DNA of 64,000 nucleotides, from the NCBI GenBank assembly GCA_016219175.1, contig JACRCD010000028.1, forward strand, positions 62,001 to 126,000, read 5' to 3'. How positions within the stretch are numbered: position 1 is the stretch's first letter; each line of letters starts with the position of its first letter. The position numbers were made by a program, and so were the translations under genes. Shown here one piece after another: positions 13,280-44,488 of this stretch. Source of the stretch: Deltaproteobacteria bacterium. Lineage in GTDB: Bacteria > Desulfobacterota > Desulfobulbia > Desulfobulbales > SURF-16. The notes under the pieces were generated by a model. The model was not told the origin of the DNA. It did not search any database and was given only the letters and a program-made list of their open reading frames with translations.

Positions 13280-13295
13280 TGGCACTGATTATGCT
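13280..13295 (+). promoter_or_regulatory. Sigma-54 promoter of the cytochrome/ferredoxin/NrfD operon
   Basis: TGGCACTGATTATGCT: a perfect TGGCAC -24 box, GG-N10-GC spacing and a TGC -12 core. Transcription should begin near 13306, about 96 bp ahead of the start codon at 13402. It is the best sigma-54 element in the window. Confidence 0.75.
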
Positions 13296-13401
13296 AGGAA
13301 AAATTGCAAGTCATTATTTTGCAGGCAAAAGCCGGCTGTTACATGAAAAGTCTCTTTATGAGCGACTGGCTTTTTCATTCATTCTCAAAAGGAGAGAGAA
13401 A

Positions 13402-13923: not shown

Positions 13924-13961
13924 AAATATCCGCGATATTACCGCAACATTTAGGTGAAAAA

Positions 13962-14888: not shown

Positions 14889-14901
14889 CAGGAGGGAAAA
14901 A

Positions 14902-18234: not shown

Positions 18235-18396
18235 GATGAACTCGTAAAAAGTCGGCGACAAAGCCCAGATGGCTAAGTAACAAAATTCGATATACAAGGT
18301 GTAGTGTATTTTTGAGAGTGAGGCTATACATGTGGTATGCCGAACGAACAAAAATGCGCTACAACGCAGTAGATCGGATTTTTTACGACGCCATCA
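18235..18396. mobile_element. MITE-like inverted-repeat element, 162 bp, with ATTAA target duplication
   Basis: The ends TGATGAACTCGTAAAAAGTC and (reverse strand) TGATGGCGTCGTAAAAAATC form terminal inverted repeats. ATTAA is repeated directly on both sides (18230-18234 and 18397-18401). No coding capacity is present, so mobilisation would need a transposase elsewhere. The internal part (GTGTAGTGTATTTTTGAGAG...) matches a repeat I recall from several Desulfobacterota genomes, but I could not check this. A truncated copy is at 3123-3174. Confidence 0.8.
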
Positions 18397-19842
18397 ATTA
18401 ATCACGGCAAGCGTATCAGGGACAGCCCCAAGTTCAATCCTGCCAACCACTTTGTTCAAGGAAAGATCAATCACCGTGACCCCTCCACTGCGGACATCGC
18501 AGACATAAAGCCACTGCCGGGCTGGGGAGACATCCATCTCAAAGGGCATGCCACCCACCCTGACGTCGCGTGAAATGTTGAGCTGTCCTGGACGAAAAAC
18601 CGAAACAGAACCTCCACCGTAATTGGCAATGTAAATGTGGTTATTGCTGAAAGCAAATCGCCTTGGTTTGCTGCCGACATTGAAACGCCCCTTGCTCCGG
18701 CCTCCTGGCAGCTCAAAAACGGACACGGAATTACTGGAACTTTCGGCCACATAGAGATAATTATCCCGGGCAAACAGCCCATCAGGAGTCCCGCCGGTGT
18801 CGATAGTTCTCACAATTGCCAGGGAAACAGGATCCAATAAAAATATTTTCTGCGAATAGGCGCTTGAAACCGCAAGGAGATTCTGCTCTTCCATGTAGAG
18901 AATATATTTGGGACGCGAACCGATACGGGCCTGCCCACCCAGAACCCCGGTTTGCAGGTTGAGGCGCAACAAGCTGTTCCCCATCTCATCCAACAGATAA
19001 GCCCATTTGCCATCCGGGCTGACAGTCATATACGTTGGTTTCGCAGAAAGAGGCACCCTGATCTGATCAATCTGCCGATTGGCTGTCAGCTCAAGGACCT
19101 TTACAGTGGCTTCCTGCTGGGCAAGAACAAAAAGACGGTTTTGCGCAGGATTTGCGATAATACTGCCCGGTTTACCGCTGATGCCGATGGAACCGCATAC
19201 CATGTTACGGTCTGTTCTGATAATGTAAATGGTGTCTTGTTCAGGACAGGATACATAAGCCAAATCCGAGACAAGAGGAATACTCTGCGTGGCAACGGTC
19301 ATTTTGGGGTTAAGTAAGGCCATGCCCTGTAATGATTGCGAAGTATCCCAGGTAAGAAAAAGAGACGGACTGTCTTCTTTAGCCAGGGTAAGTTCGGCCG
19401 GAAAATCAATTTCCACCACAGGATTATCAAGGGCCAGAAAAATCCTTTTCCCGTCACGCTCAAGAGCGCCCTCCGCCACGGTGAACCTCATGGCTTGATA
19501 TCTTCCTGCGGGCACACCCCCTCTGCCGGCAAATATCTGACCGCTGGCAGCAATCTCCTGGCTTTGCAACTCCTGCCTGGCTGCCCGCATTGGCAGCCAA
19601 TTGGTGCCGGACCGTACTTCAAGATTTTTGATCTTCATCCACAGCAGCGGCCCGTCAGGCTCCTTCACCTGCAAAAAAACGGAAAGCCTCGCCTCGCCGC
19701 GGCTTTCCTCGGAAGATGGTTGAAACAATGCACCATCCGCACCCCCGCCACCCTGCTGACAACCGCTACTAAAAAGGCTCCCGGCAGCCAACACTAGCAG
19801 GGCGCAGAAAAAATTCCGTAAACCGCGGAATAGAGTTCTCAT
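18394..19842 (-). CDS. YVTN-type beta-propeller lipoprotein
   Basis: 482 residues. A signal sequence ends LFSSGCQQGGGG, a probable lipobox with the acylated Cys at about residue 28. An N-terminal domain (about 45-185) is followed by repeated strands such as NRLFVLAQQEATVKVLEL, GKWAYLLDEMGNSLLRLNLQTG and NYLYVAESSSNSVSVFELPGG, the pattern of YVTN/Lactonase propellers. It has no heme sites. It is the last gene of the minus-strand cytochrome operon, 9 bp after the OmcS-like gene, so it is likely an outer-membrane or surface partner of the cytochromes. The ribosome site AAGGGG sits 5 bases before the ATG. The stop codon TGA is supplied by the edge of the inserted element. Confidence 0.85.
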   Translation of the reverse strand: MRTLFRGLRNFFCALLVLAAGSLFSSGCQQGGGGADGALFQPSSEESRGEARLSVFLQVKEPDGPLLWMKIKNLEVRSGTNWLPMRAARQELQSQEIAASGQIFAGRGGVPAGRYQAMRFTVAEGALERDGKRIFLALDNPVVEIDFPAELTLAKEDSPSLFLTWDTSQSLQGMALLNPKMTVATQSIPLVSDLAYVSCPEQDTIYIIRTDRNMVCGSIGISGKPGSIIANPAQNRLFVLAQQEATVKVLELTANRQIDQIRVPLSAKPTYMTVSPDGKWAYLLDEMGNSLLRLNLQTGVLGGQARIGSRPKYILYMEEQNLLAVSSAYSQKIFLLDPVSLAIVRTIDTGGTPDGLFARDNYLYVAESSSNSVSVFELPGGRSKGRFNVGSKPRRFAFSNNHIYIANYGGGSVSVFRPGQLNISRDVRVGGMPFEMDVSPARQWLYVCDVRSGGVTVIDLSLNKVVGRIELGAVPDTLAVIN

Positions 19843-19851: not shown

Positions 19852-20943
19852 TTAGTCTTTTGTCGTGTGGCAAACAGCGCAACCGTTATAACCGCCACCT
19901 GGCCACAATTTATAATCCCAACGCAACATCGCGCCATACGGAGTACCATGGGCTCTATGGCAGGAAAGACACATAACGACAGCATCATCGGTGGTTGAAT
20001 AAACGGTGCTGTTTACAGACGCTGTTTTATCCGAGGTCGCGACGGGAGAAATGACGCTGTAAGTATTGCCGGCGCCGGTACCGCCGTTATATTTCTCATA
20101 TTCACCGGAAGAGGAGGCCCTCCCCATGTCAAAATCGGTGGGATGCCGAAGCCAGACCCCGCTGCTGCCAAAAGAACCGGAAGCAATATTGCCCGCCCCC
20201 TGATGAAAATCGCCATGACACTGAGCGCAAAGATTGCTGATGGTTCCGTTAACGTTCTGTGTCTCCAGGGTTCTGTCAATCCCATAATATTTATTATGGT
20301 GGCTGCTGTCTGGCCGATACTCATACTCCGTATCTTCCAACCCCTGAACAGAGTAAAGGAAACGATAGCTCGCCGCAAGGGTTGTACCATCCTTCCAGCT
20401 GCTCATGTCGTTAGTATGGTGGGATTTCAGCATGGACTCAATTTCCCCGCCCACACTCCTGTCGCCATGGCAGCCGTTCGTGCCGGCGCACTGCAATTGC
20501 ACATCCAAACCTACTCCGCCGGGAGGGACATTGCCGAAACGGCTGTCCACGGCAGTAAAACCGCTCACGTTATGACCGGTGGCCTCCTGTCCGCTGCTGA
20601 CCCAAAAAAAATTCCCGCCCGCCAGGGTAGTAGTGTCACCTTCGGTTCCCGTGGAGCTGTATGCCGGAGCGCTGGTCTGCAGGACGTACGGGGTGACAAG
20701 ACCATCCGCGCTGTTGTTTCCCTGATGGCAGCCGATGCAGCTGGTATTGAGCAGGGCCTCATGAGGCGTATCTGATAGTTCCATGGAACCATTAACCAGA
20801 TTCCGCACCACGGCGATTCCCCCCTGGCTGTTGTGCATCGTATGACAGTTGCCGCATGGCCCCGTAACCTTGGCATCACACACAAGGGGAAACAGGGTCA
20901 GAGACAGTGAAACCAATTTCTGGACAGCTTTTGATGTCTGCAT
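19852..20943 (-). CDS. OmcS-like hexaheme extracellular cytochrome (paralog 1)
   Basis: 363 residues from ATG 20943, behind AAGAGGTGGACC. Signal peptide, then GPCGNCHTMHNSQ, SCIGCHQG, a GHNVSGF segment, QCAGTNGCHG, LCAQCHGDFHQG with WLRHPTDFDM, MCLSCHRAHG and CAVCHTTKD. The order and the spacer motifs (CHTMHNS, GHN, LRHP, CLSCHRAH, final CHxKD-like end) match what I recall of Geobacter OmcS, the filament-forming hexaheme cytochrome. Five sites are CXXCH and the third is CX5CH. It follows an NHL propeller gene by 13 bp. I infer a secreted cytochrome, possibly polymerising into a nanowire; polymerisation cannot be read from sequence. Confidence 0.85.
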   Translation of the reverse strand: MQTSKAVQKLVSLSLTLFPLVCDAKVTGPCGNCHTMHNSQGGIAVVRNLVNGSMELSDTPHEALLNTSCIGCHQGNNSADGLVTPYVLQTSAPAYSSTGTEGDTTTLAGGNFFWVSSGQEATGHNVSGFTAVDSRFGNVPPGGVGLDVQLQCAGTNGCHGDRSVGGEIESMLKSHHTNDMSSWKDGTTLAASYRFLYSVQGLEDTEYEYRPDSSHHNKYYGIDRTLETQNVNGTISNLCAQCHGDFHQGAGNIASGSFGSSGVWLRHPTDFDMGRASSSGEYEKYNGGTGAGNTYSVISPVATSDKTASVNSTVYSTTDDAVVMCLSCHRAHGTPYGAMLRWDYKLWPGGGYNGCAVCHTTKD

Positions 20944-20956
20944 GGTCCACCTCTTG

Positions 20957-21847
20957 CTAACGGCCAAATATTTCCACCCGACCACTTCCCTCCTCTACAA
21001 CACAAAGACCTCCCCATGGGTCAAAAAGTATTTCGATCGGATAGTACAGCTCGCCTCGAGACCAACCCTTGCCAAGAAAGGCATATTTAAATTCGCCCTG
21101 CGCATCAAAAACAGCAATATTTCCTTTATGGCGATCAAGAACATAGGCATTATCCGCCGGGCCAATTGCCAGAGACACAGGAAACTCTACCTGCAGACCA
21201 ACAGCAAAGCTTTTGGTCAAGGCGCCGCCGCTGTCAAACTGCACAACTTTTTTACCCAGCTGATCCAAGGCCCAGAGACGACCATCATTTGTTAATTTAA
21301 AATCAACGATGCCACTAACGCATTCCGGACAGGAGATCCATTTGTTTACGCTCAGATTACCGTCGATCACGGCAATCTCCCCTGATGCCTTATCAAGGAT
21401 GTAGAACTGGCCGTTTTTATAGTCCATCCGGTCAGGCACCAGGGTGCGATCACCTTCCTTCAGGGTATGCAATGTAATTTCTTTTGACTTGACATCAACA
21501 CTTGTCAGGCTGTTGCGCCCTTTTTCGATCACCCAGAGAAGATCCTTTTCATCACGAACCATATCATAGGGGATCTGGAGTTTGCCTTCCGCGGTAAACG
21601 TATGCAGAAAACCGCCTTCCCTGGAAAAGGAAAGAAGCCTGTTGCCGCCACTGTCAATCACATAGTAACGCTGACGCTCGACATCAACGTACAAAGCCGT
21701 GGGCATGGACATGGCCTGGCCGGATGATGTCCCCTCAAGGGTTGCTCGCCAAGCCCAGGGGTCTGCCGCATAAGAAGTTGACACCCCAATAAAATTTGCG
21801 ACAGTCAGCAATGCTGCCAAACCCAATATTTTGTTCACGAACTTCAT
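20957..21847 (-). CDS. Periplasmic NHL-repeat beta-propeller
   Basis: 296 residues from ATG 21847 (GAAGGAG upstream). The signal peptide is MKFVNKILGLAALLTVANF... ending near SYAADPW. NHL-type blades repeat, for example PTALYVDVERQRYYVIDSGGNRLLSFSREGG, PYDMVRDEKDLLWVIEKGRNSL and YPIEILFDPWGGLCVVEEGSGRVEIFGR. There are no hemes. NHL proteins commonly accompany extracellular cytochrome genes in metal-reducing bacteria and may act in assembly or scaffolding; their biochemical role is unknown. It lies between the 16-heme and OmcS-like genes in one transcript. Confidence 0.87.
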   Translation of the reverse strand: MKFVNKILGLAALLTVANFIGVSTSYAADPWAWRATLEGTSSGQAMSMPTALYVDVERQRYYVIDSGGNRLLSFSREGGFLHTFTAEGKLQIPYDMVRDEKDLLWVIEKGRNSLTSVDVKSKEITLHTLKEGDRTLVPDRMDYKNGQFYILDKASGEIAVIDGNLSVNKWISCPECVSGIVDFKLTNDGRLWALDQLGKKVVQFDSGGALTKSFAVGLQVEFPVSLAIGPADNAYVLDRHKGNIAVFDAQGEFKYAFLGKGWSRGELYYPIEILFDPWGGLCVVEEGSGRVEIFGR

Positions 21848-21904
21848 AGAGTCTCCTTCACAAAACAGCATTCTGTTACCGAAAATTAAAAATACGCATT
21901 GTCA

Positions 21905-23083
21905 TCAGTATCTCTTATGGCACTGAACACAAAGATCTTTCGAGCCGCTGTATATCAATTCGTTTTTAAAATCCGATCCCATGGGCAAGTGACAGCTGAT
22001 ACACGTTACCATTTGCCCTGTTCGGGCATCCAAAATCTTTTCCCCGACCGGATGAGTGAACTTGCCCTGGGTCTCATGGCATTGGGTGCAAATGGCATTG
22101 CCGTCACCCCTGAGCATGGCCACCCGGTTTGAGCCATGCACTTCATGACAGCTTGTGCATGTGCCTGCTTTAGCCTCAGGATGTTTGTAAAGCTTATCCG
22201 CATAGCGGGCCATGGTATCACGATGGCAAGCACGGCATACTTCAACCTGGCTGCCTTTCAACAGATTCTTTTCATCAGCCGCATGCGGAGAATGGCAATC
22301 CACACATTTATTTCCGCCCTTGCCGGTCAAATGACTGTGCCGGGCATGCATCTCCGTTGCAACTTTTTCATGGCAACGCAGACAGCTCTGCGTGTTTCCC
22401 TGTGTCCCCTTTTGATCATGACAATCCTTGCACCCCTTTGCATATGGAGCATGAAGCACATTCCGGACAATGCCTTTCCGCTCACTGCCGTGGGGATTAT
22501 GACAGGAAAGGCAGTTTCGCAGCTGCCCTGGATAATCCGCATGGCCTTGCTGCAAATCCTGGGGCTTATGACAGGATTGACAGATTTTATCCGGTTCATC
22601 CTTGAGCAATTGGCCATAAGCCGCCTGGTGCGGACGATGACAGGCAAAACATTGCCCTTTGGCAAACGGACTGTGTGTATGTCCGTATTTCTGAGGCAAT
22701 TTGTCGTGACAGCTGAAACAGATTTTATCTAAATTGCTCTTAAGCAGCCCGCTGTTGGCGCTGGCGTGGGGTTCATGACAGGCGAGGCATTTCCCGCCGC
22801 GGACAGGCTGGTGAACCAAACCCTCCTTGAATTTTTCCTTTTCCTTGCCGTGGCATGCATAGCAAAGATCAGCCCCTTCCTTTTCGAGCAAACCCTTAAA
22901 ATGAGCGACATGGGGATTATGACAAGCCTTGCACTGCCCGTCGGCTAGAGGTTGATGAACAATGTTGCCGCTGAATGACCCTTTATCGTGGCAATCAAAG
23001 CAGATATTCTCTGCCGCTGCGGCAGCTCCAGGCAAAACAACGGCAAGCCAGAAAATGACAACCATGCGATGATAATGTAACAT
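21905..23083 (-). CDS. 16-heme cytochrome c with doubled CXXCH repeats
   Basis: 392 residues. The ATG at 23083 overlaps the previous stop (TAATG) and follows GGGGAGGG. A signal peptide (VVIFWLAVVLPGAAAAAEN) is followed by 16 CXXCH sites in repeats of about 45 residues that alternate C..CHDK-type and CxxCHxPH-type sites, the doubled-CXXCH pattern. It is a soluble exported cytochrome able to carry charge over a long distance. It is translationally coupled to the 26-heme lipoprotein, so the two probably form one conduit, with this subunit in the periplasm or at the cell surface. Confidence 0.92.
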   Translation of the reverse strand: MLHYHRMVVIFWLAVVLPGAAAAAENICFDCHDKGSFSGNIVHQPLADGQCKACHNPHVAHFKGLLEKEGADLCYACHGKEKEKFKEGLVHQPVRGGKCLACHEPHASANSGLLKSNLDKICFSCHDKLPQKYGHTHSPFAKGQCFACHRPHQAAYGQLLKDEPDKICQSCHKPQDLQQGHADYPGQLRNCLSCHNPHGSERKGIVRNVLHAPYAKGCKDCHDQKGTQGNTQSCLRCHEKVATEMHARHSHLTGKGGNKCVDCHSPHAADEKNLLKGSQVEVCRACHRDTMARYADKLYKHPEAKAGTCTSCHEVHGSNRVAMLRGDGNAICTQCHETQGKFTHPVGEKILDARTGQMVTCISCHLPMGSDFKNELIYSGSKDLCVQCHKRY

Positions 23084-25029
23084 TATTTTCTGCCCTCCCC
23101 GGGATGACACGGACGGCATTGCCCTTTGGCAAAAGGCGCGTGGACAACAGGAAATAACAGCCCTTTTGCCGGCCCGCCATGTGGATCATGGCAGCTCAGA
23201 CAGGAATCATTTCCAGGGAGAATTCCTTGATGGACCGCCGTAAATCTTGTTTCTGTAAAGTTATGGCATTTGGCGCAGAGCAAGCCGCCCTTTTCAATAA
23301 CAATTCCCTTATACTTGGAAGCATGGGGATCATGACAGGTTGAACAATTTTTTGTTGCCGGTTCATGGGCGACACCCTCCTGCCAATATTTGGCAATCTC
23401 CTGGTGGCAGGAGAGACAAAGGGCAGGCTGGTCCTTCTTCAGATTTTTCTGATGCACAGACCCATGGGCCAGATGGCAGACCCCGCAATTTACATCTTTG
23501 ACAGGCCCATGAATTACCGAGGCTTCCTTGATTTTTTTCCCTATTCCAGCGTGACAGGAAAGACACTGATTGCCCGGGTTTACTTCCATGTTGTAAATAA
23601 AGTCTCCGGCGTGGGGTGAATGGCATTTCTCGCAATCTTTCTTTGCAAAGGGCTCATGAGGGATCACGTTCTCCGTCTGTTTTCCCATGGCCGCCTGATG
23701 ACAGGAAAGGCAAAGCCTGCCGCCACTCTGACTCTCCTTTAACAGATTCTTCCTCTCTCCCTGATGCGGCTCATGGCAACGACTGCATTCTCCATTGGCA
23801 AAAGGGGTATGAAGGCTGTAGTTGCCCATCTCCCTGGCGCTTTGCTGATGACAGGACAGGCACAAGGTTTTTTCATTTTTTATAAGCAATTTTCTCTCGC
23901 CTGACTCATGGGATTTATGACAGTCCAGGCACTTCGCCCCAGCAGCAGGAGGGTGAACAACTTTGCCCTGGCTGTATTTTTTTTCCTCATGACAGGCATA
24001 ACAAAGCAGGGAAGGCTCCTTGACGAGCAGGGCAACACGTTCCGAACCATGACCAACATGACAGGAAAGACATCGCCCATCGGAAAATGGCGCATGGCTG
24101 CTTTTCATCTCATTCTGCTCTCCCTGTTTATGACAGCCGATGCACGCCCTTTCAGGGGGCATCGCAAGCATTTCCTTGTATTCACTGGCATGAGAGGCAT
24201 GGCACTGCAAGCAATTCCCCTGTTCATACGGTTTATGCACGCTGATCATTTTCTTACTTTTCTGTGCATGGCAGGCCAGACACCCTGCATTCGCATCACC
24301 TTTAAGCTGCAGCTTCCCTTCGCCTCCGATGAGATGACAGCTGTCACAATTCCCGTCCTGAACAGGCTTATGCACAATCGGCTTTAACAAATGAAGCCCA
24401 TCGGAACTATGCGGACTATGGCACAGAATGCAACGGCCCTGCACAGGAAACTCCCTGTGGCTTTTCCTGAAGGTTGCCGTATTATTAGCATGGCAAGACA
24501 GACAAAGACCATCCTCTTCCATTTTCAGCAGAAACTTCTCATCCGAGCCATGACTGACATGGCAGCTGGCGCATCCTTCCCGGACAGGAGCATGAACATT
24601 GGCTCTGACAAACTGTTTTTTGTCATGGCAGGTAAAGCAGAGTTCCGGGCTCGCTGTTTTGAGCAATCCCTCGAGATCACCATTATGCACCTCATGACAT
24701 GCCAAACATTGGCCTTTGCTAACCGGTTGATGTACCGATTTTTTCTTGCTCTCCTCACCTTTCCGCCGATGACAGACAAAGCATTGTTCCGGCGGGTTCT
24801 GCCTGAGATACACCCCACCAATCATGCCATGATGTATGTGGCAGGCTTCACAATTGTCTTCCTGTACAGGCTTGTGAACAACTCCCTGTTTGAATCTGGC
24901 CGCCATCTCGGCATGGCATTCGACACAGTTTTTTCTGGTTTGGCGGACAGGTTGAGTGGAAACACAGGAAACCAGGGAACAGACAACGAACGAAACAGCA
25001 ATGAAGAACTTAATTTTCTTTCCCGACAT
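23083..25029 (-). CDS. 26-heme c-type cytochrome lipoprotein
   Basis: 648 residues from ATG 25029, overlapping the PpiC-type gene by 20 bp. The N-terminus MSGKKIKFFIAVSFVVCSLVSCVSTQ holds a lipobox (LVSC). I count 26 CXXCH sites in regular pairs: one in a CxxCH-x-PH/SH context with HxP before it, the next about 20 residues on after LLK. It is the largest electron-transfer protein in the window, anchored by lipid and probably facing periplasm or surface. I recall a 26-heme cytochrome near omcS in Geobacter sulfurreducens as well, which, if right, supports homology of the loci. A longer start at 25068 is possible but lacks a clean ribosome site. Confidence 0.92.
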   Translation of the reverse strand: MSGKKIKFFIAVSFVVCSLVSCVSTQPVRQTRKNCVECHAEMAARFKQGVVHKPVQEDNCEACHIHHGMIGGVYLRQNPPEQCFVCHRRKGEESKKKSVHQPVSKGQCLACHEVHNGDLEGLLKTASPELCFTCHDKKQFVRANVHAPVREGCASCHVSHGSDEKFLLKMEEDGLCLSCHANNTATFRKSHREFPVQGRCILCHSPHSSDGLHLLKPIVHKPVQDGNCDSCHLIGGEGKLQLKGDANAGCLACHAQKSKKMISVHKPYEQGNCLQCHASHASEYKEMLAMPPERACIGCHKQGEQNEMKSSHAPFSDGRCLSCHVGHGSERVALLVKEPSLLCYACHEEKKYSQGKVVHPPAAGAKCLDCHKSHESGERKLLIKNEKTLCLSCHQQSAREMGNYSLHTPFANGECSRCHEPHQGERKNLLKESQSGGRLCLSCHQAAMGKQTENVIPHEPFAKKDCEKCHSPHAGDFIYNMEVNPGNQCLSCHAGIGKKIKEASVIHGPVKDVNCGVCHLAHGSVHQKNLKKDQPALCLSCHQEIAKYWQEGVAHEPATKNCSTCHDPHASKYKGIVIEKGGLLCAKCHNFTETRFTAVHQGILPGNDSCLSCHDPHGGPAKGLLFPVVHAPFAKGQCRPCHPGEGRK

Positions 25030-26641
25030 GAAGATCACCGAGTTCCTTTTTAATTTTCTCCCAGGCACTGTTGTTTATTTCAATAACCGACCTCTGTTTC
25101 AGAGCGGTAATATATTCATTGCGCAATTTGGCAAATTTTTCCTTATCCACCAGATCCGCGACTTTGTCCCGAATATGATCAAGGGACATAGGGTTGGCGG
25201 GAGTCCTTTTTATCAATTTAATAATGGTATGATGCCCTTTTACTGAAAAAGGCTCGCTTACTTCTCCGATCACCAGCTTATTAATAGCTGATTGCACAAC
25301 AGGATCTAGATGATTAAACTGCATATTCTGCACAGGCACCTCTCCCGAGTAATAACGGGCCGCAACGTCAAAAAAATCAAGCCCTTTTTTCAGCTCCGCA
25401 AACATCTTACCGATGAGATTTTCCTCATCCTCCAGAACGGCGATGGAGACCATCTCCGGCTGGGAAAAACGGCCCAAATTAGCTTGATAATACTGGGCAA
25501 TTTCCTCTTCGCTCACTTGAATTTTCGGCCTGAAGAGACGCTTCTCCAATTCTTTTATCAGGCGGTGCTGAGTGTAAAAAAGGTAAAGCGGCCTTAAAGG
25601 TTCTCTCTGTTCATAATGCTCATCCAGCCCCCCCCTCGTCGTGAGCGTCTGAGCCAGAACTCCGTCAAGAAGCCTTTTTTTGAGTTTTTCACCCTCCTGG
25701 CTGTCAAAACCATACTGTTTACGGAATTCCTGGTCCTTGTTGACGAGATCCAAAAAAACCTTCACCGTATAATTTTCATTGTCCATGGTAATAAGGGTCT
25801 GTTCAAGCAGCTTTTCATCAGGTGCTTCCATGTTCAAGGCATCAAAGACCGGCTGGTTTATTATCACCTGGTATTTTTTCTTCAGCTGTTCAACAAGAGC
25901 GCTGGTTAGTTCCTGCTCCCGCATTTCTCTGATCTCATTTTTGATCGTCGGGATCAAGGCTTTATAATCCTCTTGGTCAAATCCTTTCTGGTCTTTCAAT
26001 CCTACAATGACAAAACCTTTACTCCATCGAAAAGGTTCAGACATCTCACCCGGGGCAAGACTCTGCACGACAGGGCGCCACTGCTGTTGCAGCTGATTGA
26101 TCCTGGACCATTTTTCCTCGTAATAGACGGAATGCTTACCATCCGCCCCGGCAGCAGCGGCAAATTTCTCAAAATCATGCTCCGCCCCCAGTTTGATCAA
26201 GGCAGCGTCAGCCACCTGCTCGTCATTAAAATACAATATCTGCAGCTGCAACCGGGGAAGATATTTTTTCTCATACCAGTCTTTCAGTTCACTGTCAGTT
26301 ATTGCAATCCGGGAGCTGATCTTATCCCCTCGGTAAAGCAGCAACGTTCGCGCTTTCAAAAAAACTTCCACCTTATGTAGGTATTCCGGTTCATTATAAA
26401 GCTCCATTTTCTCAGCCTCCTGCACCAGCAAATGCCAATCAACAAACGACTCGGCTGAATCGGGAAATGGAGTGTTTTTTTCCTTCCAGTTTATCCACCA
26501 GCTTTTATAATCGTCAGAGGTAAAGTCCTGGCCATTTATGGTCGCGATTCTATCCGGACCCCATGGCCAGGCAAAGACAGAGCCCGTTCCTCCAAGCAGC
26601 CAGAGAAAAATAAATATCCATAAAAATCCTACTCTTCGCAT
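25010..26641 (-). CDS. Exported PpiC/SurA-type peptidyl-prolyl isomerase, two-domain
   Basis: 543 residues from ATG 26641 (AAGGAA upstream). A signal peptide (FLWIFIFLWLLGGTGSVFA) and two repeating modules are present, each with an N-terminal helical chaperone segment and a parvulin-like part (for example LQILYFNDEQVADAALIKLGAEHDFEKFAAAAG and GEMSEPFRWSKGFVIVGLKD; then GEVSEPFSVKGHHTIIKL). Such proteins fold secreted and outer-membrane clients. Embedded in a cytochrome operon and overlapping both neighbours, it is probably a dedicated foldase for the multiheme cytochromes or the beta-barrel. Catalytic residues of the parvulin domains are not obvious, so it may work mainly as a chaperone. Confidence 0.88.
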   Translation of the reverse strand: MRRVGFLWIFIFLWLLGGTGSVFAWPWGPDRIATINGQDFTSDDYKSWWINWKEKNTPFPDSAESFVDWHLLVQEAEKMELYNEPEYLHKVEVFLKARTLLLYRGDKISSRIAITDSELKDWYEKKYLPRLQLQILYFNDEQVADAALIKLGAEHDFEKFAAAAGADGKHSVYYEEKWSRINQLQQQWRPVVQSLAPGEMSEPFRWSKGFVIVGLKDQKGFDQEDYKALIPTIKNEIREMREQELTSALVEQLKKKYQVIINQPVFDALNMEAPDEKLLEQTLITMDNENYTVKVFLDLVNKDQEFRKQYGFDSQEGEKLKKRLLDGVLAQTLTTRGGLDEHYEQREPLRPLYLFYTQHRLIKELEKRLFRPKIQVSEEEIAQYYQANLGRFSQPEMVSIAVLEDEENLIGKMFAELKKGLDFFDVAARYYSGEVPVQNMQFNHLDPVVQSAINKLVIGEVSEPFSVKGHHTIIKLIKRTPANPMSLDHIRDKVADLVDKEKFAKLRNEYITALKQRSVIEINNSAWEKIKKELGDLHVGKEN

Positions 26642-27234
26642 CGTTTCATTCCTTTCGCATACCACTCTTCAATAACCTCCTCCGCCATAATACGGCTGAG
26701 CTGGGTCACCGTGTTAACAAGTCCGAAATGCATGACGGTACGGTAATCAGCACCTTCACGCCTATGGTAAGTAGTCCACATTGTCTTACCGCTCTTGGCG
26801 TCATGAACCTCCAGCGTTAACGCCAGGACAGGAGTCACATAGTTGTCCCCCATTTTTTCTTCCATTTCCGCTATTCTGCCCGTGATGATAAGTTGGACAT
26901 CAAGCCTGCTGCCTATCACCATGATTTGTTCGATATCAGGGTGCTGGTTGGGAAATATCCGCAGCTCTCTGTAAAGATTCCAGACATCGCCCTCGGAGGC
27001 GACTTTAATTCCAGCACTGCTTAATTTTGCCCCCATGATACGCTGGACGATAATTCCTCCCTGGTCAAAACGACTGTCATTAATAAAAGGAAGAAGGGCT
27101 ATACTGCATACATCGTCTCCTTCATGGACGACATTTTTTTCAAAGGAAGGGCGCGCGGGTCCACACGAAATGCAACTCAGCAGAAGGCTGATTATGCTAA
27201 AAAGGGAAAAGCAGCTGGGTAATGGAAAATTCAT
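26629..27234 (-). CDS. Small envelope lipoprotein with TolB/CsgG-like N-terminal fold
   Basis: 201 residues from ATG 27234; a TTG at 27255 overlapping the upstream gene is an alternative. A signal peptide ends LLSCISCGPARP, a lipobox. The core reads SIALLPFINDSRFDQGG...VQRIMGAKLSSAGIKVASEG...VIGSRLDVQLIITGRIAEME...LALTLEVHDAKSGKTMWTTYHRREG, the pattern of secretion-linked lipoproteins (CsgG, LpoB, GNA1162 type) that bind other envelope partners. Two other proteins in this operon share this fold. No enzyme motif was seen. A role in secretion or in assembly of the outer-membrane cytochrome system is inferred from context. Confidence 0.72.
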   Translation of the reverse strand: MNFPLPSCFSLFSIISLLLSCISCGPARPSFEKNVVHEGDDVCSIALLPFINDSRFDQGGIIVQRIMGAKLSSAGIKVASEGDVWNLYRELRIFPNQHPDIEQIMVIGSRLDVQLIITGRIAEMEEKMGDNYVTPVLALTLEVHDAKSGKTMWTTYHRREGADYRTVMHFGLVNTVTQLSRIMAEEVIEEWYAKGMKRCEE

Positions 27235-27251
27235 AAAAAATGTCGCTCTGA

Positions 27252-28727
27252 TCAAAATTCAGGAACCCACTCATCCTGCTTTGCTGCTCCGGATTCTTCT
27301 TCATGGGGGACAACTAATTGCATGAGATCGCTTATCTTTTTTCGAACTTTATTCCCTAATACATCCTTTACGCTAGCAGAACATTCCAATTTTCTTGCTT
27401 CTCCGGAAGAAGGATAAGGGACGGATATATCGGCAGGCAGTTCGTTTCCCTGGCTCTGCATTAAAACTTCCCCATCCGAATACAGGATCTCCAAGGTCCA
27501 GAAATCAACCGGTATCTCATCCTCACAATCCAGCCTTACGACAAGACTGTCCATGTCTGTTTCAGCGTTTATCACCGGAGTTGGGGGATTTCCCTTCAAA
27601 AAAACTTTTTGTGTCGCAACAGTGGGGTTATCAGCCCTGTCCCATACCTTCAAAATAATTTCATACATTCCGTCTTCAGCTTTACGACCGTCGGGCCTCT
27701 GTCCTTTCCAGACAAACCGCGGGGGAATGGCCCCTGTGCCCTCTACCCCCGCCATGATCTCCCCGTTCAAATTCTGAATGGAGAAAGACCAACGGGATAC
27801 CGGCTCAGGATCCTGCCAGACAGGAATTACCGGCAGTCGTGCATTGAATGCGGTAATATTGTTAACCTTCGCGCCCACGATTTTCAAGGACAGCTTAGGT
27901 GCGCTGTTGTCCACCTGATAGTTGCCGACAAAAAAAACCTTCATGCCGCCGGAACCATACTTTAAAACCAGACTTACCGGCAGAGAACCATCCCTGTCTG
28001 GAGCAAACCAGGAAACAGAATACATGTTTGCCTGATTTTCCCGCATCTCCAGATAATTATCATCTCCAACCATCAGCAGGACCTGGGAGAGCTTGTCGTT
28101 GCCGATTGCCGGCCGAAGCCTGACGTTGCAACGCACCTCATCACCCGGCTTCGCATGCATGGGTTCAAGTCTGGATGTTTCAACAAACATGCCTGGACTT
28201 CCCTCGGCTTCTTCTATTACCGATGGCCAGCTGTTCATGATTTGCCGGGTAAGCACCGGCAATATCTCATCAATGTTTTCAGGTTCATCTATGGCAAGGA
28301 AATTTGAGACATCCGCTTTGCTTACTCCACCGACATCGGTCCAGATGGTACGCGCATCACTTGTCCGGACGAGACTAAGAACCATGCCAAGAGCTGCCAG
28401 CGGCAAATCCTGCCGCTGGCTTACCGTCCCCAGCAGGACAAAATCAGCCCCGAGATCCTGTTTCGCCTGACAAATATGGCTTGTGCTAAGAAATCCCAGC
28501 CATCTGATACGATTTCTCGCCATAAAAGTGATGACTCTATCAGAAGGTATGACCTCCAATCCTCTTTCCGTCATACTTTGCTGCAAAAAATCAGTGAGAG
28601 GGAAATTCACGCCATTACGTCCCTGGCTTAAGTCTTCCACCGGCAATACCGCCACACTAAGCGCCTGAGCATGGGGAGCCATCTGCATAAACAGCAGCAT
28701 TACCGAGATGATAAAAAAATTCTTCAT
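27252..28727 (-). CDS. Exported protein with TolB-like domain and C-terminal beta-sandwich
   Basis: 491 residues. The signal peptide is FFIISVMLLFMQMAPHAQALS. The N-terminal domain (about 22-165) has VAVLPVEDLSQGRNG...FLQQSMTERGLEVIPSDRV...LGADFVLLGTVSQRQ...SLVRTSDARTIWTD, the same fold as the lipoproteins on either side. The remainder (about 175-480) is beta-rich with Ig-like or FlgD-like strands (RFVWKGQRPDGRKAEDGMYEIILKVWDRADNPTV). No heme or catalytic motif. It is the second of three such genes running into the cytochromes. The ribosome site is weak. I do not recognise a named family for the whole protein. Confidence 0.75.
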   Translation of the reverse strand: MKNFFIISVMLLFMQMAPHAQALSVAVLPVEDLSQGRNGVNFPLTDFLQQSMTERGLEVIPSDRVITFMARNRIRWLGFLSTSHICQAKQDLGADFVLLGTVSQRQDLPLAALGMVLSLVRTSDARTIWTDVGGVSKADVSNFLAIDEPENIDEILPVLTRQIMNSWPSVIEEAEGSPGMFVETSRLEPMHAKPGDEVRCNVRLRPAIGNDKLSQVLLMVGDDNYLEMRENQANMYSVSWFAPDRDGSLPVSLVLKYGSGGMKVFFVGNYQVDNSAPKLSLKIVGAKVNNITAFNARLPVIPVWQDPEPVSRWSFSIQNLNGEIMAGVEGTGAIPPRFVWKGQRPDGRKAEDGMYEIILKVWDRADNPTVATQKVFLKGNPPTPVINAETDMDSLVVRLDCEDEIPVDFWTLEILYSDGEVLMQSQGNELPADISVPYPSSGEARKLECSASVKDVLGNKVRKKISDLMQLVVPHEEESGAAKQDEWVPEF

Positions 28728-28829
28728 GATGGCAACCGCATAAAACGCTGGTCCTCTCTCTTGCCGGGAAATTCCCGGCTACCAGGAAAGGCGGCCGGGC
28801 AAATGCTCATCCCGGATTCCTACACAATA

Positions 28830-29465
28830 TTATTTATCCGGTTCAACGGTTACAGGTTCTGAAATTACTGTTCCAGCAGGAGGCGTCTCCTGCTTCTGAG
28901 GAATAGTGCTAAGAAGTTCCTGAACGAGCTTAACGGTAACCTTATAGGTATCGTCCGGAACAACGCCAAAAAGTCGCCCCAGCATGGAATCGCCGGCACG
29001 ATGACCGCTAGCCTGCCACAATACGAGACCGGACTTAGTCTCAATCAACCGTAAAGTCAAACTCATTTCAGGAACAAGCAGCGACCCTATACGTTTGTCA
29101 CCTGCCAAATCAACGGAACCGACAATAATGGACTGGACATTGAGGCGCTGTCCCAACCTGCTCAGCATGAGCTGGCTCACGGCGGCACCAGGGTCGACAG
29201 CCTCCTCATACAATATACTGTCGACTATACCCTTGTCCACAACATCAAAAACATTCATTGCCAGGATCTGGGAGCTGATAACGTCCCTTGCCAGTTCCGC
29301 CGCATACTTCTGATCCGTGTTGTTTTGCAGGGGCAGAACACAAACTCTGTTGACAAAATCAAGCGTTACATCTTCCCGCATAAAGGAAATTGTTGTTTTT
29401 CCTCCGCATCCGGACAGTGTCAAAAAGCACATTAACAACGTCATAAATCGCATTGATCTTTTCAT
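28830..29465 (-). CDS. Envelope lipoprotein, CsgG/LpoB-like
   Basis: 211 residues. The lipobox LSGCGGK follows a short hydrophobic signal. The fold signature is VCVLPLQNNTDQKYAAELARDVISSQILAMNVFDVVDKG...LGQRLNVQSIIVGSVDLAGD...MSLTLRLIETKSGLVLWQASG. It is probably outer-membrane anchored, facing the periplasm, where it might form or regulate an export channel or bind the 685-residue barrel encoded just upstream. The 102-bp gap to the next gene and the 208-bp gap from the barrel gene could each contain a promoter, though none was obvious. Confidence 0.75.
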   Translation of the reverse strand: MKRSMRFMTLLMCFLTLSGCGGKTTISFMREDVTLDFVNRVCVLPLQNNTDQKYAAELARDVISSQILAMNVFDVVDKGIVDSILYEEAVDPGAAVSQLMLSRLGQRLNVQSIIVGSVDLAGDKRIGSLLVPEMSLTLRLIETKSGLVLWQASGHRAGDSMLGRLFGVVPDDTYKVTVKLVQELLSTIPQKQETPPAGTVISEPVTVEPDK

Positions 29466-29673
29466 GAACAGAATCCTTGAAAAATTGAAAGGGTAACGCT
29501 TCGCTCATAAAGAATCAAACTTCATGATTCAGCCCCGGAATGCAACCGCAAAAAATCTCCTATAACAAAGGAAAAAAGACATCAAGAGGTGTTATTAGCC
29601 GCACGCTCTATCAACGAACCGTTCATACTGCTCCGCCGGGCCGGGAAATGGCTTTGTGCGAGACCGTTAAATT

Positions 29674-31731
29674 TCAGTAGCGCACGACCAGCTGCCCTCC
29701 ATACTCAAAGCCGCTGCCTTCGCTATCTTCACTGTCTTTGCTGTCTTCGCTGTCTTTGTTTTCCGCATAAGTAGTATAAGCTTGCATTGAAAAAATCTTG
29801 TTAATAGTCCAGCTGTAAGTCGCGTTATAACTATCCGCACTCTCACTGTGGTCAAAATTTAAATTCAACTGAGTTTTATAGGTAGGAGCAACAGTCAGAC
29901 TGAAAAAATATGTAAAAGGGAATGAGTCTTCGCTTTCCCACTCCCGGCCTAAGCCAACCTCGAACGACAAAATATCGGAAGGCCTCCAGCTCGTGCTGAT
30001 AATACTTGCTGCCGACCAGCTGTTTGATTTTTCATCATGAGAGGTAGCATATTTTTCTGTTAAATCAATGGTAAGACTGGGGTTGAGCCGTGCGGTAAAT
30101 TTTAAGGTGGAGTCGAAATCCTGGCCCAACAAATCTTTCTCCTCATCACGATCAGTGAGATAAGTAAGATCAAGATTCGAGGTCAAATCGGGAAATATAA
30201 GCGCGGTCAGAAATAAGTTATAATTATAACTGGTATCACTTTTCACATCCGCTTCATAATTATCGTTCCGGGTGACGCCTAGATTCATATCCAGGGTAGG
30301 GAGCAGCTGCGAAGAACAACTGATCGAGTAAAATCGATTTCTTTCTTCCTCATCTGTTTGCTCTTGGTCGCGTGATTCACTGGCACTGAGGGTTGACGAA
30401 AACAAAAGGCTGGGTGCCCAAAGAAGACTGGTGGCATTATATGTCCGATCAAGGTCGTGCCCCAAGGCGGTCTCCCCATCTTCCAGAATCAGATTATACA
30501 TAAATTGCAGGGCATCGGTGATCCGCAGTCTGACAGAGCTATCACCTAAATAATTAGCAGTCTCCGTTTCAGTCGAAATCCGTTCTCCTGTTTCACCTGT
30601 AACCCTTGTATATGCCTCAACCCTGGTAATGTTAAAATCAGAATCCGTGCGAATTTTCTCTTCAACCAGCATGACATAACGGTAGCGCAATTCAGGTGTT
30701 TCCAGCTCAAATCGCTGCATGATACTGTTATATACGGGCTGAGGCGATGGCGTTTGGGGAGCCCAGGTGGTCCCATCATTACTGGCATATACAGTCCATC
30801 GAAAGCGGCTAGCATCATCCGTCAGGTCAGAATCCGTGTAAAGATAAATTGCATTAACCTGCTGGGAATCCACTTGCAACCCGACATTATATCGTTGATC
30901 ATGGATTACCAGCGGCAAATTCGCACTCAGGTCATTCCAGTCCGGTTCTTCATCAACATCCTTGTCGTCCCAGCCACCGCGTGATTCTCGTATACGAACC
31001 GGCACAAGGGCTCTGCCCCTGGAATCGAGGGTGGCGGAAAAATCCTGATTGTTTCTATCGTATTGTCCAAGAAAGGAAAAACTTACGCGGTCCTGCCAGA
31101 AAGATTTGTCAGTTGTCAAACGGCCCAGCTGACTGGAGGACTTATTATTACTATCCGCAACATAGTCATCGCTTTCATTCAAATCGATACTGTAATAGAC
31201 TTTGGCCAGCAACAAGTCCCAGTCAATATTGAAACCACTGGAGGTACTGTTTGCATCGAGCCGGTTGGGATTCTCATCATCGCCTGTGCGGCTCCCTCCA
31301 TAATTGAATTGCAACGCAGGCCACAGTTCTTTCTGCCAGTTGCTGTTCCAACGACTCTGCCATGACCGGCTGGTCAGATCAGATCTCTCGGAATTGCGGA
31401 GTTTGTTTAATGTCCCGGAAAGGTCAAAATAAAAGAGATCATTATTTACTTCCAAATCAAGATAGGGATTTACCGTTTCAGTTTCACTCCCCTCTTTCCA
31501 ACTCGTAGTGTAGCGGACAGATTCTTCAAGACTCATCACGGGTGTTAGCTGCGCATCATGATTAAAGGTCGTGCTTTGGCTGATTTGCGATGTGTCTCCT
31601 TCCTCATCGGTATGCTGAGATGACAGCAGGCCATTAAAGGTTAGCGGCTTTCCATAGGCTGCAGCCGCCCCAATAAAGACAAGCGCTGACAGGATCAGGG
31701 TAATGCTGCTATATTTTCTCCCTCCCCTCAT
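29674..31731 (-). CDS. Large outer-membrane beta-barrel protein
   Basis: 685 residues with a signal peptide (ITLILSALVFIGAAAAYG). It has long alternating amphipathic strands with many Asp/Ser/Thr turns (for example SSQLLPTLDMNLGVTRNDNYEAD) and ends LVVRY, an aromatic C-terminus as used for BAM insertion. It lies in the middle of an outer-membrane cytochrome locus, so it could be the porin of a porin-cytochrome conduit. Low-complexity DSEDSKDSEDSEGS near the C-terminus is encoded by 9-bp repeats at about 29710-29758. The ATG lacks a ribosome site; the strong one upstream serves a 14-codon in-frame ORF ended by TAA at 31738-31740. Confidence 0.82.
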   Translation of the reverse strand: MRGGRKYSSITLILSALVFIGAAAAYGKPLTFNGLLSSQHTDEEGDTSQISQSTTFNHDAQLTPVMSLEESVRYTTSWKEGSETETVNPYLDLEVNNDLFYFDLSGTLNKLRNSERSDLTSRSWQSRWNSNWQKELWPALQFNYGGSRTGDDENPNRLDANSTSSGFNIDWDLLLAKVYYSIDLNESDDYVADSNNKSSSQLGRLTTDKSFWQDRVSFSFLGQYDRNNQDFSATLDSRGRALVPVRIRESRGGWDDKDVDEEPDWNDLSANLPLVIHDQRYNVGLQVDSQQVNAIYLYTDSDLTDDASRFRWTVYASNDGTTWAPQTPSPQPVYNSIMQRFELETPELRYRYVMLVEEKIRTDSDFNITRVEAYTRVTGETGERISTETETANYLGDSSVRLRITDALQFMYNLILEDGETALGHDLDRTYNATSLLWAPSLLFSSTLSASESRDQEQTDEEERNRFYSISCSSQLLPTLDMNLGVTRNDNYEADVKSDTSYNYNLFLTALIFPDLTSNLDLTYLTDRDEEKDLLGQDFDSTLKFTARLNPSLTIDLTEKYATSHDEKSNSWSAASIISTSWRPSDILSFEVGLGREWESEDSFPFTYFFSLTVAPTYKTQLNLNFDHSESADSYNATYSWTINKIFSMQAYTTYAENKDSEDSKDSEDSEGSGFEYGGQLVVRY

Positions 31732-31737
31732 AATCAG

Positions 31738-31782
31738 TTACTTTCCGCATGTAATTATGAAAAATAAATCATTTTCCTTCAT
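31738..31782 (-). CDS. Possible 14-residue leader ORF in frame with the beta-barrel gene
   Basis: Minus-strand ATG at 31782 lies 7 bases after AAGGAG and encodes MKENDLFFIITCGK before TAA. The barrel ATG follows 6 bases later in the same frame. It may be a translational-coupling leader or a nonsense-interrupted N-terminal extension. Confidence 0.4.
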   Translation of the reverse strand: MKENDLFFIITCGK

Positions 31783-31908
31783 CCCCCATCTCCTTGCATT
31801 AAAATGCAAAACATGAAGAAACAGCAACTGTTATCAGTCTAAAACAAAAAAAAGCTACATCTCAACAAGCCTGGGCAAACCTTACCGGTCAAAACATTTG
31901 ACAAAAAA

Positions 31909-31963
31909 AATTCCGGCCTGAAAACGATAAGGAGGGAAGGGATATCGTTTCCTGGCCGGAATT
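31909..31963 (-). terminator. Rho-independent terminator of the second OmcS-like gene
   Basis: Arms AATTCCGGCC (31909-31918) and GGCCGGAATT (31954-31963), with inner AAACGATA/TATCGTTT pairing, are followed on the minus strand by eight T residues (31901-31908 region). This separates the cytochrome from the barrel gene downstream. Confidence 0.85.
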
Positions 31964-32023
31964 AACTTGTGCAGCTAACAGACTTTTACTTTTTCTTACT
32001 CATTATGCGATTGCGGCTGTCCA

Positions 32024-33154
32024 TCAACCTGCATCTTTGGTTGTATGGCACTCAAAACAGCCACAGGCGCCATTGTCGCTTCCGGCCTGACAAGTATCAT
32101 AATCCCAACGGAGAAGATCCGCATATGGGGATCCATGAGCCCGATGGCAGGAAATACAGTTAACGATTGCGTCGCCCGCGTTGGCAAATACGTTGCTCAC
32201 AGTAACCGTGACAACAGCTCCTGTTTTACGGTTGGTGGCAACAGGAGCGATAGGCAGATACGTTCCATCAGTGCCGTAACTCTTGTATTCGGTGCCGGCG
32301 CCTAGAACGTTCATATCATAATCCGTTGGATGACGTATCCAGGCAGCAGCTGCTTCCACACCAGTGTCAGCGCCGAGATTTCCAGCCCCTGAATGGAAAT
32401 TGCCATGACATTCGGCACAAAGATAGTTGATACTTTTTGCACCTTCACTCCCTGATGCGGGCATTGTGTCGGATGCCCGATGCACACCGTAATATTGATT
32501 ATGATCTATTGAACTGCTGTCAAATTCCCAATTGGTGTCTTCCTTGCCGATAATACCATAGAGGAAGCGGAAACTTTTGGCGGTTGTCGAACCATCAAGG
32601 GTGGAGTCATCACCATGGTGGGATCCCGAGATTGCGGTAAAATCATCCACCGTACTGCCCCCCTTCACATGCTCCCCATGACAGCCATAGGTGCCGGCAC
32701 AGGTCAACTGGGTCGCCCAAGCGCCATTTCCGCTGTTCACCTGGGTATTTGCATTAAAATCAGGATTCCAGCCGGGAGGATCGTAATCCAAATTCACGTC
32801 GGCATTGACGCCTGCTTCAAGGCCGATCACATTATGTCCCGTGGTGTCGTCGGTAAGCACCCAATAAAAATTGCCGCCGGCAAGGGTATTGGTGCCGTAG
32901 GTAGGCGCTCCAGAAGAAAGAACATAGGGGATATTACCGGCAACGGTATTGGTTCCCGTATGGCAACCAATGCAACCGCCATTGGTTAACGCCCCGCTTG
33001 GAGAATCAAAAAGATCCGCGCCATCCTGGCTGTTATGCATTGTATGACAGTCCACACAGGGGCCTGCCGCCTTACCCATAACTGAACACGGCAGAATGAA
33101 CGCGACTCCCAACAAGCCGACGCCGATCGATATAATCCGCATTTTTTTATCCAT
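32024..33154 (-). CDS. OmcS-like hexaheme extracellular cytochrome (paralog 2)
   Basis: 376 residues from ATG 33154, behind GGAGGG. Same architecture as the paralog at 19852: GPCVDCHTMHNSQ, CIGCHTG, GHNVIGL, TCAGTYGCHG (CX5CH), LCAECHGNFHSG with WIRHPTDYDM, NCISCHRAHG, CFECHTTKDAG. It differs by being a stand-alone transcript: its own strong terminator lies just downstream, and upstream are a palindromic site (33228-33244) and a sigma-54 promoter (33283-33298). That arrangement suggests separate, stronger and regulated expression, as expected for the main filament subunit, with the other copy expressed with the accessory operon. Filament formation is inferred from similarity to OmcS, not shown. 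Confidence 0.87.
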   Translation of the reverse strand: MDKKMRIISIGVGLLGVAFILPCSVMGKAAGPCVDCHTMHNSQDGADLFDSPSGALTNGGCIGCHTGTNTVAGNIPYVLSSGAPTYGTNTLAGGNFYWVLTDDTTGHNVIGLEAGVNADVNLDYDPPGWNPDFNANTQVNSGNGAWATQLTCAGTYGCHGEHVKGGSTVDDFTAISGSHHGDDSTLDGSTTAKSFRFLYGIIGKEDTNWEFDSSSIDHNQYYGVHRASDTMPASGSEGAKSINYLCAECHGNFHSGAGNLGADTGVEAAAAWIRHPTDYDMNVLGAGTEYKSYGTDGTYLPIAPVATNRKTGAVVTVTVSNVFANAGDAIVNCISCHRAHGSPYADLLRWDYDTCQAGSDNGACGCFECHTTKDAG

Positions 33155-33227: not shown

Positions 33228-33244
33228 TGCGGCAAATTGTCGCA
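33228..33244. promoter_or_regulatory. RegA/PrrA-like palindromic site 2 (best match)
   Basis: TGCGGCAAATTGTCGCA, core GCGGC-N5-GTCGC. It lies 74 bp upstream of the OmcS-like start. A possible sigma-70 -10 (TATTAA, minus strand 33199-33194) would put the site centre near -50. Confidence 0.8.
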
Positions 33245-33282: not shown

Positions 33283-33298
33283 AGCACATTACATGCCA
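33283..33298 (-). promoter_or_regulatory. Sigma-54 promoter upstream of the OmcS-like gene
   Basis: On the minus strand TGGCATGTAATGTGCT: a TGGCATG -24 box, GG-N10-GC spacing and a GTGCT -12 box. Transcription would start near 33272, which puts the palindrome at about +29 to +45. Confidence 0.65.
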
Positions 33299-35780: not shown

Positions 35781-37160
35781 GTGAACTCATCTGATGGAAA
35801 GATCATTTACTGCGAAATCCGCAGCAGGGTCCAAGACATAGCCTTTCTCTGGCTTCTCCGGCTCAGATGGGCCATCCTGGCAAGCCAGGCATTGATAATC
35901 CTGGCAGGAAGCAGATTTTTTTATTTACAGATTTCCCTGTGGCTTGCGGTGCTGGTGTTCGTTCTTGGCCTAAGCAGCAATATTTCCCTTTACAATTTAC
36001 TTGCCCGGAAGGCCGTCATTCCCTGCTGGGTTCCCACCCTTGTGATGTTTTTTGACGTTGCCTTGATGACCATTCTTTTTTTCCAGGTTGTCTCAATCTA
36101 TAACCCCCTGAGCATTCTTTACATAATCTACATAGTCCTGGGCGCCCTTCTTCTTGAACGAAAATGCTCTTATTCCCTTACCGCCTTTACCTTCCTCTGT
36201 TATGGCATCTTTTTCTGTTTTGCCTCCCCCAGCCCGATTGACCATTCGATCCTGAACGCCACCAACCCAGTCATCGGCAGCCCCGAGGCTTTAACCATCT
36301 TCAGCAGACAGATTGATGAATATTTCAAGTCCTACAGCTATTTCATGTTCTTTATATTTTTCCTCGTGGCCTTGTTAATAGTCTACCCTGTGGCCCAGAT
36401 AAAAAAAAACATGGAAGAGCAGGACGAAATCTTCAAGGAACTTGAAGAGGAAAGGATGCGAAACGAAAAACTTGCCTCGCTCGCCACTTTTGCGGCGGGA
36501 GCGGCGCATGAATTTTCCACGCCTCTGTCAACCATAGCAATTGCCGCGGGCGAAATGCTTTTTTATTTCAAAAAGCAGGGCGGGGACAAAGCTCTGATTG
36601 ACGATACCCGCCTGATTCGCGATCAGGTTGCCAGGTGCAAGGAAATCCTCTACCAGATGTCTGCTGATTGTGGTAAATTACTCGGAGAGGCTGTTGACAA
36701 ATTCAGCCTCAAGGAACTAGTTTATGAAGTTATGTCCCGTTTCAACTTTGAGAATATGCAACATGTCAACTTCAATAACAGGGTTGGGGATATGCATATT
36801 GTGATGCCCATCCGGACCCTCACAAGGACCATTAAAGAGCTTATGAAAAACGCCATGGACGCATCGGATCCTGGTTCCCCTATTGAGCTGACGTGCTGGA
36901 ATGACTCTCAATATTTGTATTTTGAAGTTTTGGACCAAGGGGCAGGGATGGATGAAACTGCTATAAAACGGGCGATAGAACCGTTTTACACCAGTAAGCA
37001 ACCAGGAAAGGGTATGGGGCTAGGTCTCTATCTGGCCAAGGTGATGGCAAACAGATTCGGTGGCGATCTGAAGCTAACTTCGCGACCGGGGGAAGGAACC
37101 AGTGCGACATTAAGTTTTGCTTTGAATCGGATTCAAGCGGACAACGGCGCGGATGCCTGA
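35781..37160 (+). CDS. regB: RegB/PrrB-type redox-sensing histidine kinase
   Basis: 459 residues, GTG start after GGGGTG. It opens LLRLRWAILASQALIIL as RegB proteins do and has about six membrane helices (20-200). A diverged quinone motif, SIYNPLS around N108-P109, stands where RegB has GGxxNPF. H-box: AAGAAHEFSTPLSTIAIAAGEM with H243. C286 in QVARCKEIL sits where the redox-active cysteine (Cys265 in Rhodobacter capsulatus) is expected. The kinase core has ELMKNAMDAS, DQGAGMD and GKGMGLGLYLA. RegB senses ubi- or menaquinone redox state and phosphorylates RegA, which is the next gene. The family is best known from alphaproteobacteria. Confidence 0.9.
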   Translation: MNSSDGKIIYCEIRSRVQDIAFLWLLRLRWAILASQALIILAGSRFFYLQISLWLAVLVFVLGLSSNISLYNLLARKAVIPCWVPTLVMFFDVALMTILFFQVVSIYNPLSILYIIYIVLGALLLERKCSYSLTAFTFLCYGIFFCFASPSPIDHSILNATNPVIGSPEALTIFSRQIDEYFKSYSYFMFFIFFLVALLIVYPVAQIKKNMEEQDEIFKELEEERMRNEKLASLATFAAGAAHEFSTPLSTIAIAAGEMLFYFKKQGGDKALIDDTRLIRDQVARCKEILYQMSADCGKLLGEAVDKFSLKELVYEVMSRFNFENMQHVNFNNRVGDMHIVMPIRTLTRTIKELMKNAMDASDPGSPIELTCWNDSQYLYFEVLDQGAGMDETAIKRAIEPFYTSKQPGKGMGLGLYLAKVMANRFGGDLKLTSRPGEGTSATLSFALNRIQADNGADA

Positions 37161-44480: not shown

Positions 44481-44488
44481 TAAAACCC

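Follow-up and report, generated by a model that had tools for sequence, protein, structure and literature searches.

The hexaheme cytochrome OmcS of Geobacter sulfurreducens (6ef8) forms filaments, and its hemes are bound by 12 His ligands, one of which is donated by the neighbouring subunit to heme 505 (PMC6584659). The genes that accompany such proteins have been described several times. A core operon has been defined as a six-bladed propeller, a 16-heme cytochrome, a 26-heme cytochrome and a peptidyl-prolyl isomerase, with two copies in Desulfurivibrio alkaliphilus (PMC5539420); OetABI clusters have been found with OmcS-like genes, and this operon type has been read as an OetABI porin-cytochrome conduit (PMC10553843); and GSU2500-2493 are linked to the maturation and secretion of the OmcS wire in the passage of PMC12977616 that cites Shen 2025. 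In D. alkaliphilus, DA_402, DA_756 and DA_765 have been placed in a sister clade of OmcS and are up-regulated in sulfide oxidation with iron oxide, and DA_402 has been modelled as a filament (PMC12545173). Here we have analysed 64,000 nucleotides from the genome of a sulfur-cycle bacterium of the Desulfobulbales, the order that includes Desulfurivibrio (contig JACRCD010000028.1, positions 62,001 to 126,000; the window hereafter), which carry two genes of this already known protein family on the two sides of an eight-gene block. We consider it probable that both genes code for secreted hexaheme cytochromes belonging to the OmcS sister clade, that the block most likely exports and matures these proteins, and that they polymerise outside the cell into an electron-carrying heme chain.

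Both open reading frames are present where a preliminary description, made from the sequence alone, had placed them, and both lie on the minus strand, like all features below whose coordinates are joined by two dots, unless stated otherwise. The solo gene (32024..33154) encodes 376 aa and the in-operon gene (19852..20943) 363 aa, each with five CxxCH motifs and one CX5CH. Their starts, at 33154 and 20943, are preceded by Shine-Dalgarno sequences, their N-termini are hydrophobic as judged by eye, and the two proteins show 42% identity over most of their length (E=4e-89). The motifs pointed out in that description (CHTMHNS, GHN, LRHP/IRHP, CLSCHRAH/CISCHRAH) are all there. Of the six heme sites it had counted, five are CxxCH, while site 3 is CX5CH, and the number six holds only if CX5CH binds heme. 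In addition, other contigs of the same genome contain two further family members and two canonical OmcS-like genes.

The homology of the window proteins to OmcS over the heme core is supported by profile search. With a query built from 70 family members, the PDB match is OmcS at E=5e-26, the next best being at 0.014, and the alignment is colinear from site 1 through site 5. Besides the colinear heme sites, the window proteins have CHTMHN, GHN, RHP and CHRAH in common with OmcS, as well as the gene neighbourhood as read in Geobacter-like genomes, at an overall identity of 27–29%. OmcE and OmcZ also form extracellular cytochrome filaments, but they are at best marginal in the profile search (7tfs_A, which we take to be OmcE, E=0.022) or, in the case of OmcZ, not among its PDB matches. 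We have also made AlphaFold models from the family alignments; their predicted local distance difference test scores (pLDDT) are 74.5 (solo copy) and 79.4 (in-operon copy). For the in-operon model, Foldseek returns a single PDB structure, OmcS (E=3.5e-5). The profile and fold searches found no PDB structure of the CX5CH subtype.

The clearest difference from OmcS lies at heme site 3. This site reads CAGTYGCH in the solo copy (32678..32701) and CAGTNGCH in the in-operon copy (20467..20490), and the motif C-x5-C-H-G is found in 79 of 80 relative loci from public genomes, the sole exception being an interrupted open reading frame (L031). CSSCHDPHG of OmcS and CAGTNGCHG of the family are equal in length; that is, the second Cys has been shifted by three residues and now precedes the position of H147 of OmcS. 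In the alignment, all 21 CX5CH members have His opposite OmcS H13, H16, H51, H110, H243, H257, H332, H335 and H404, and H16, H110, H257 and H335 are also conserved in the canonical OmcS sequences aligned. H16 of the mature chain is presumably the inter-subunit ligand on heme 505 (heme 5) of OmcS. On the other hand, the N-terminal H2 of OmcS is kept in the canonical sequences but in only 1 of the 21 members of the CX5CH family. All of these members have H247 and an HH pair instead, and twelve His ligands can still be counted. This conservation suggests an exchange of two axial histidines, by which CX5CH may bind its heme with rearranged axial ligands. No paper applying the term CX5CH to a multiheme cytochrome turned up in a literature text search. 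A paralog elsewhere in the genome (C77:36180-37265, L003) has seven CxxCH and no CX5CH, with site 3 reading CSPCH...CKGCH.

The window proteins are not OmcS proper, as seen from CX5CH at site 3 and from their position in the trees, which were quick ones with support by the Shimodaira-Hasegawa-like approximate likelihood ratio test only. A separate clade unites canonical OmcS and its Geobacter-like relatives with two genes of the same genome that lie on contig C36; the C36 genes have six CxxCH and 38% identity to OmcS by BLAST, one of them with a PDB match at E=2e-65. Phylogeny against OmcS, proposed as a check in the preliminary description, has thus placed the window genes outside the canonical OmcS clade. 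Within the CX5CH clade they fall in different groups, the in-operon copy with copies directly following the NHL gene, and the solo copy with genes at the corresponding position in its genus and in relatives. The two copies derive from duplications inside their own CX5CH clade. The suggested likeness to omcS/omcT is a loose one, which holds for the layout, with copies on both sides of the block as in clusters of the Geobacter type, but not for the descent.

Primer match, gene counting and tree all place the window cytochromes in the OmcS sister clade of D. alkaliphilus. Both primers for reverse transcription quantitative PCR of DA_402 (PMC12545173) match within a 431-aa gene of a D. alkaliphilus genome (G231), which has six CxxCH and one CX5CH and is followed by the genes for the barrel, the LpoB-like protein, the homologues of 27252 and 26629, and the isomerase, as in the window. 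Elsewhere in this genome, exactly eight block genes separate two CX5CH genes, which fits the numbering of DA_756 and DA_765, and we infer that these are the two genes. In the tree, DA_756 falls among the in-operon copies, together with that of the window, and DA_765, less firmly, among the upstream copies. Overall, the D. alkaliphilus proteins are of the same CX5CH family, and DA_756 and DA_765 flank the same eight-gene block; they differ in that their identity to the window proteins is 36–48%, that DA_402 carries a seventh motif, and that the window genome has an additional canonical OmcS set.

The block spans 31731 down to 20957. Its genes encode a 685-aa protein, probably an outer-membrane barrel, with a weak homologue at the same place in canonical omcS clusters (29674..31731); an LpoB-like lipoprotein (28830..29465); a 491-aa secreted protein with a weak FlgD-Ig match (27252..28727); a 208-aa probable lipoprotein (26629..27255); a secreted PpiC-type peptidyl-prolyl isomerase (25010..26665); a 26-CxxCH cytochrome (23083..25068); a 16-CxxCH cytochrome (21905..23119); and an NHL-repeat propeller (20957..21871). 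The in-operon cytochrome is, as had been noted in advance, near the end of a tight operon (28727-18394), in which it is the penultimate gene; the last one encodes a YncE-like beta-propeller (18394..19842) that is present in canonical omcS clusters too. The heme counts of 26 and 16 exactly equal those of the core operon in PMC5539420. In Geobacter-like genomes, whose OmcS identity is 59–72%, the same set of block genes adjoins OmcS, and compared through these relatives the window block has the composition of GSU2500-2493 beside an OmcS-like gene, which supports the assembly genes expected nearby. In the Geobacter-like genomes, OmcS copies and the YncE-like propeller lie upstream of the block and more OmcS-like copies follow it; in the window, the solo copy is upstream of the block, and the in-operon copy and the YncE-like gene are downstream of it. 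The two-copy layout recurs across many Desulfobacterota, with both copies ~11–15 kb apart on 11 contigs, and in at least 4 more genomes of the family of the window organism. A third arrangement is seen at locus L124 (G190 C53:41001-61000), where a 42-CxxCH protein resembles fused 26- and 16-heme proteins, together with LpoB-like genes and six-CxxCH OmcS-like cytochromes of 26–29% identity to OmcS.

We have further built a tree from 68 26-heme proteins and given each the label of the cytochrome next to it. The tree separates the machineries linked to canonical OmcS from those linked to CX5CH, and just 2 label changes are needed among the rows with a single label; that is, block and cytochrome are co-inherited. 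The exceptions are near the root, where the CX5CH clusters of Nitrospirota and Desulfonauticus branch on the canonical side. While the window block shares core genes and heme counts with the PMC5539420 operon, OetABI and GSU2500-2493, in the tree it falls with the machineries that accompany the CX5CH cytochromes. The window genome has both sets, since contig C36 carries canonical OmcS with its own 26- and 16-heme genes; the 26-heme proteins of C36 and the window are 35% identical, and canonical-type sets also exist in relatives within the genus and family of the window organism. In a sample of 395 genomes across the phylum, 34 have the CX5CH family (E<1e-40) and about 15 have strong canonical OmcS (E<1e-50), and only the window genome and G045 are on both lists.

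Based on these observations, we tentatively suggest, with a confidence a little short of even, that OmcS-type systems fall into a canonical CxxCH subtype and a CX5CH subtype, that either one has its own co-inherited export machinery, that the CX5CH subtype forms a wire of a separate kind, in which site 3 is re-registered and two axial histidines are exchanged, and that this genome runs both in parallel under different control. We have not found described an invariant CX5CH with exchanged histidines, a near-strict co-segregation of the machinery with the cytochrome subtype, or one genome that carries a canonical OmcS set in addition. Since 34 of the sampled genomes have the family and about 15 have strong canonical OmcS, much of the wire-type electron transfer outside Geobacter may rely on the CX5CH subtype. 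A genome with both subtypes offers a way to address the specificity of each machinery for its cytochrome, and the presence of heme at a CX5CH site in a conducting chain.

As to how the locus may work, the eight-gene block would export and mature both cytochromes, which would polymerise extracellularly into a heme chain carrying electrons to or from an external partner, for example Fe(III) minerals or other cells. The solo copy may be the main inducible wire, and the in-operon copy a co-secreted or base subunit. For a filament cytochrome outside Geobacter with its assembly genes, which the preliminary description had valued as a find, the homology to OmcS and the nearby block speak in favour, but OmcS-like proteins and this operon type have been reported earlier in Desulfurivibrio and in sulfate reducers that are partners of anaerobic methanotrophic archaea (PMC12545173, PMC10553843).

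Several points weigh against such a wire. No filament has been seen for the CX5CH or OmcS sister clade, and even for OmcS the physiological role of the filaments is a matter of dispute (PMC11077965). A single-sequence PDB search gave zero matches, and the in-operon model matches OmcS with a template modelling score (TM-score) of 0.43 and a root-mean-square deviation of 12 Å. The solo model, in a run without an OmcS-prediction control, has no Foldseek PDB match, which leaves a fold match for one of the two models; this negative is weak, because for OmcS and OmcE themselves Foldseek and DALI return only themselves and close homologues (PMC9473688). Heme site 3 and the two putative distal histidines are unlike those of OmcS, and the packing could differ. 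Finally, the H16 equivalent is missing from downstream OmcS-like copies in Geobacter-like genomes (L105 12487-15409 and L109 17768-19204), which read CHTR, CHGR or CHSK where others read CHTMH. Since some downstream canonical homologues lack this residue, kin of OmcS need not polymerise.

This loss also bears on a refinement that is compatible with the polymerising chain, namely that only the solo copy is a wire and the in-operon copy is a part of the machinery, such as a cap, adaptor or base. The downstream copies without the H16 equivalent, in the Geobacter-like genomes G398 and G189, would fit it, and so would the fact that in-operon copies make up a single clade with a constant place beside the NHL gene, and that the other copy is variable. 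Against it, the in-operon copy of the window retains CHTMH and all other conserved histidines. We regard this refinement as somewhat unlikely. The proteins could instead be extracellular or outer-membrane-associated hexaheme carriers, monomeric or in short oligomers, which act as terminal reductases or docking partners of the 26/16-heme conduit and not as long wires. Such operons have been taken as OetABI conduits (PMC10553843), the geometry at heme 3 is not that of OmcS and neither are two putative ligands, and among the Geobacter paralogs only OmcS itself is known as a wire (PMC12977616). Against this stand the inter-subunit His, which is invariant in the family, though lost in some downstream canonical copies, and the filament model of DA_402 (PMC12545173), and we hold this alternative to be unlikely. 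Recent acquisition of OmcS/OmcT orthologues from Geobacter, suggested by common motifs and gene neighbourhood, is extremely improbable and is refuted by the trees, given the OmcS identity of only 27–29%, the separate clades of both the cytochrome and the 26-heme protein, and the genuine OmcS-like genes elsewhere in the genome.

The solo gene is a separate transcription unit, as had been proposed, with promoter-type elements and a strong intrinsic terminator of its own (31903..31963; free energy -32.1 kcal/mol, z -7). It is plausible that the roles of the two copies are split by regulation. The palindrome TGCGACAATTTGCCGCA (33228..33244) precedes the start of the solo gene by about 75 nt and is a RegA/PrrA-like candidate site; it is kept in three congeners and at locus L073, the right arm less so. 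It fits GCGNC-N5-GNCGC, which we take to be the form of RegA/PrrA sites; the window has 3 sites of this form against 1.2 expected, and the form alone is not significant. Genome-wide, the palindrome pattern gives 27 and 25 matches on the two strands versus 9 and 8 for the reversed control. The palindrome is also present upstream of the CX5CH gene on contig C47 of the same genome, in the space between a divergent gene pair of the window, 40339 (for a 10-heme cytochrome) and 40879, and ahead of genes resembling, by eye, superoxide dismutase and flavodiiron protein.

Near the solo gene, the plus strand encodes a putative redox sensor kinase (35781..37160) and a response regulator (37218..37751), with 74–75% and 91–93% identity, respectively, within the genus. 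Their best NCBIfam matches are ActS/PrrB/RegB (157 bits, cut-off 350) and ActR/PrrA/RegA (179 bits, cut-off 250), and because both scores are below the cut-offs we call the pair only RegB/RegA-like. As a testable proposal, this pair may exert redox control of the solo gene via the palindrome; a palindrome near a RegB/RegA-like pair and possibly controlling a solo gene was not found described. A sigma-54-like -24/-12 site, TGGCATGTAATGTGCT, is located at 33283..33298 and is absent from the nearest relatives of the solo gene; such sites precede 6 of 27 other upstream copies versus 0.02 expected, and sigma-54 control of the solo copy is possible. In the window as a whole, five sites match TGGCAYN6TGCW (8649, 13280, 33283, 52566 and 56797) against 0.7 expected, and a TGCGGC palindrome immediately follows those at 52566 and 56797. 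A PilZ-domain protein (33475-33795), conserved in the genus, is encoded upstream of the solo gene, and a short protein (40879-41304) beside the 10-heme gene begins like another PilZ protein; cyclic di-GMP control is possible.

The window contains other cytochrome loci. At 41682-45500, one 5-heme and two 12-heme cytochromes are found upstream of a sensor kinase and sigma-54 response regulator (45616-48863), and at 13291-16158 a 5-heme cytochrome is accompanied by a twin-arginine translocation (TAT)-type iron-sulfur protein and a membrane protein resembling the NrfD-type quinone module.

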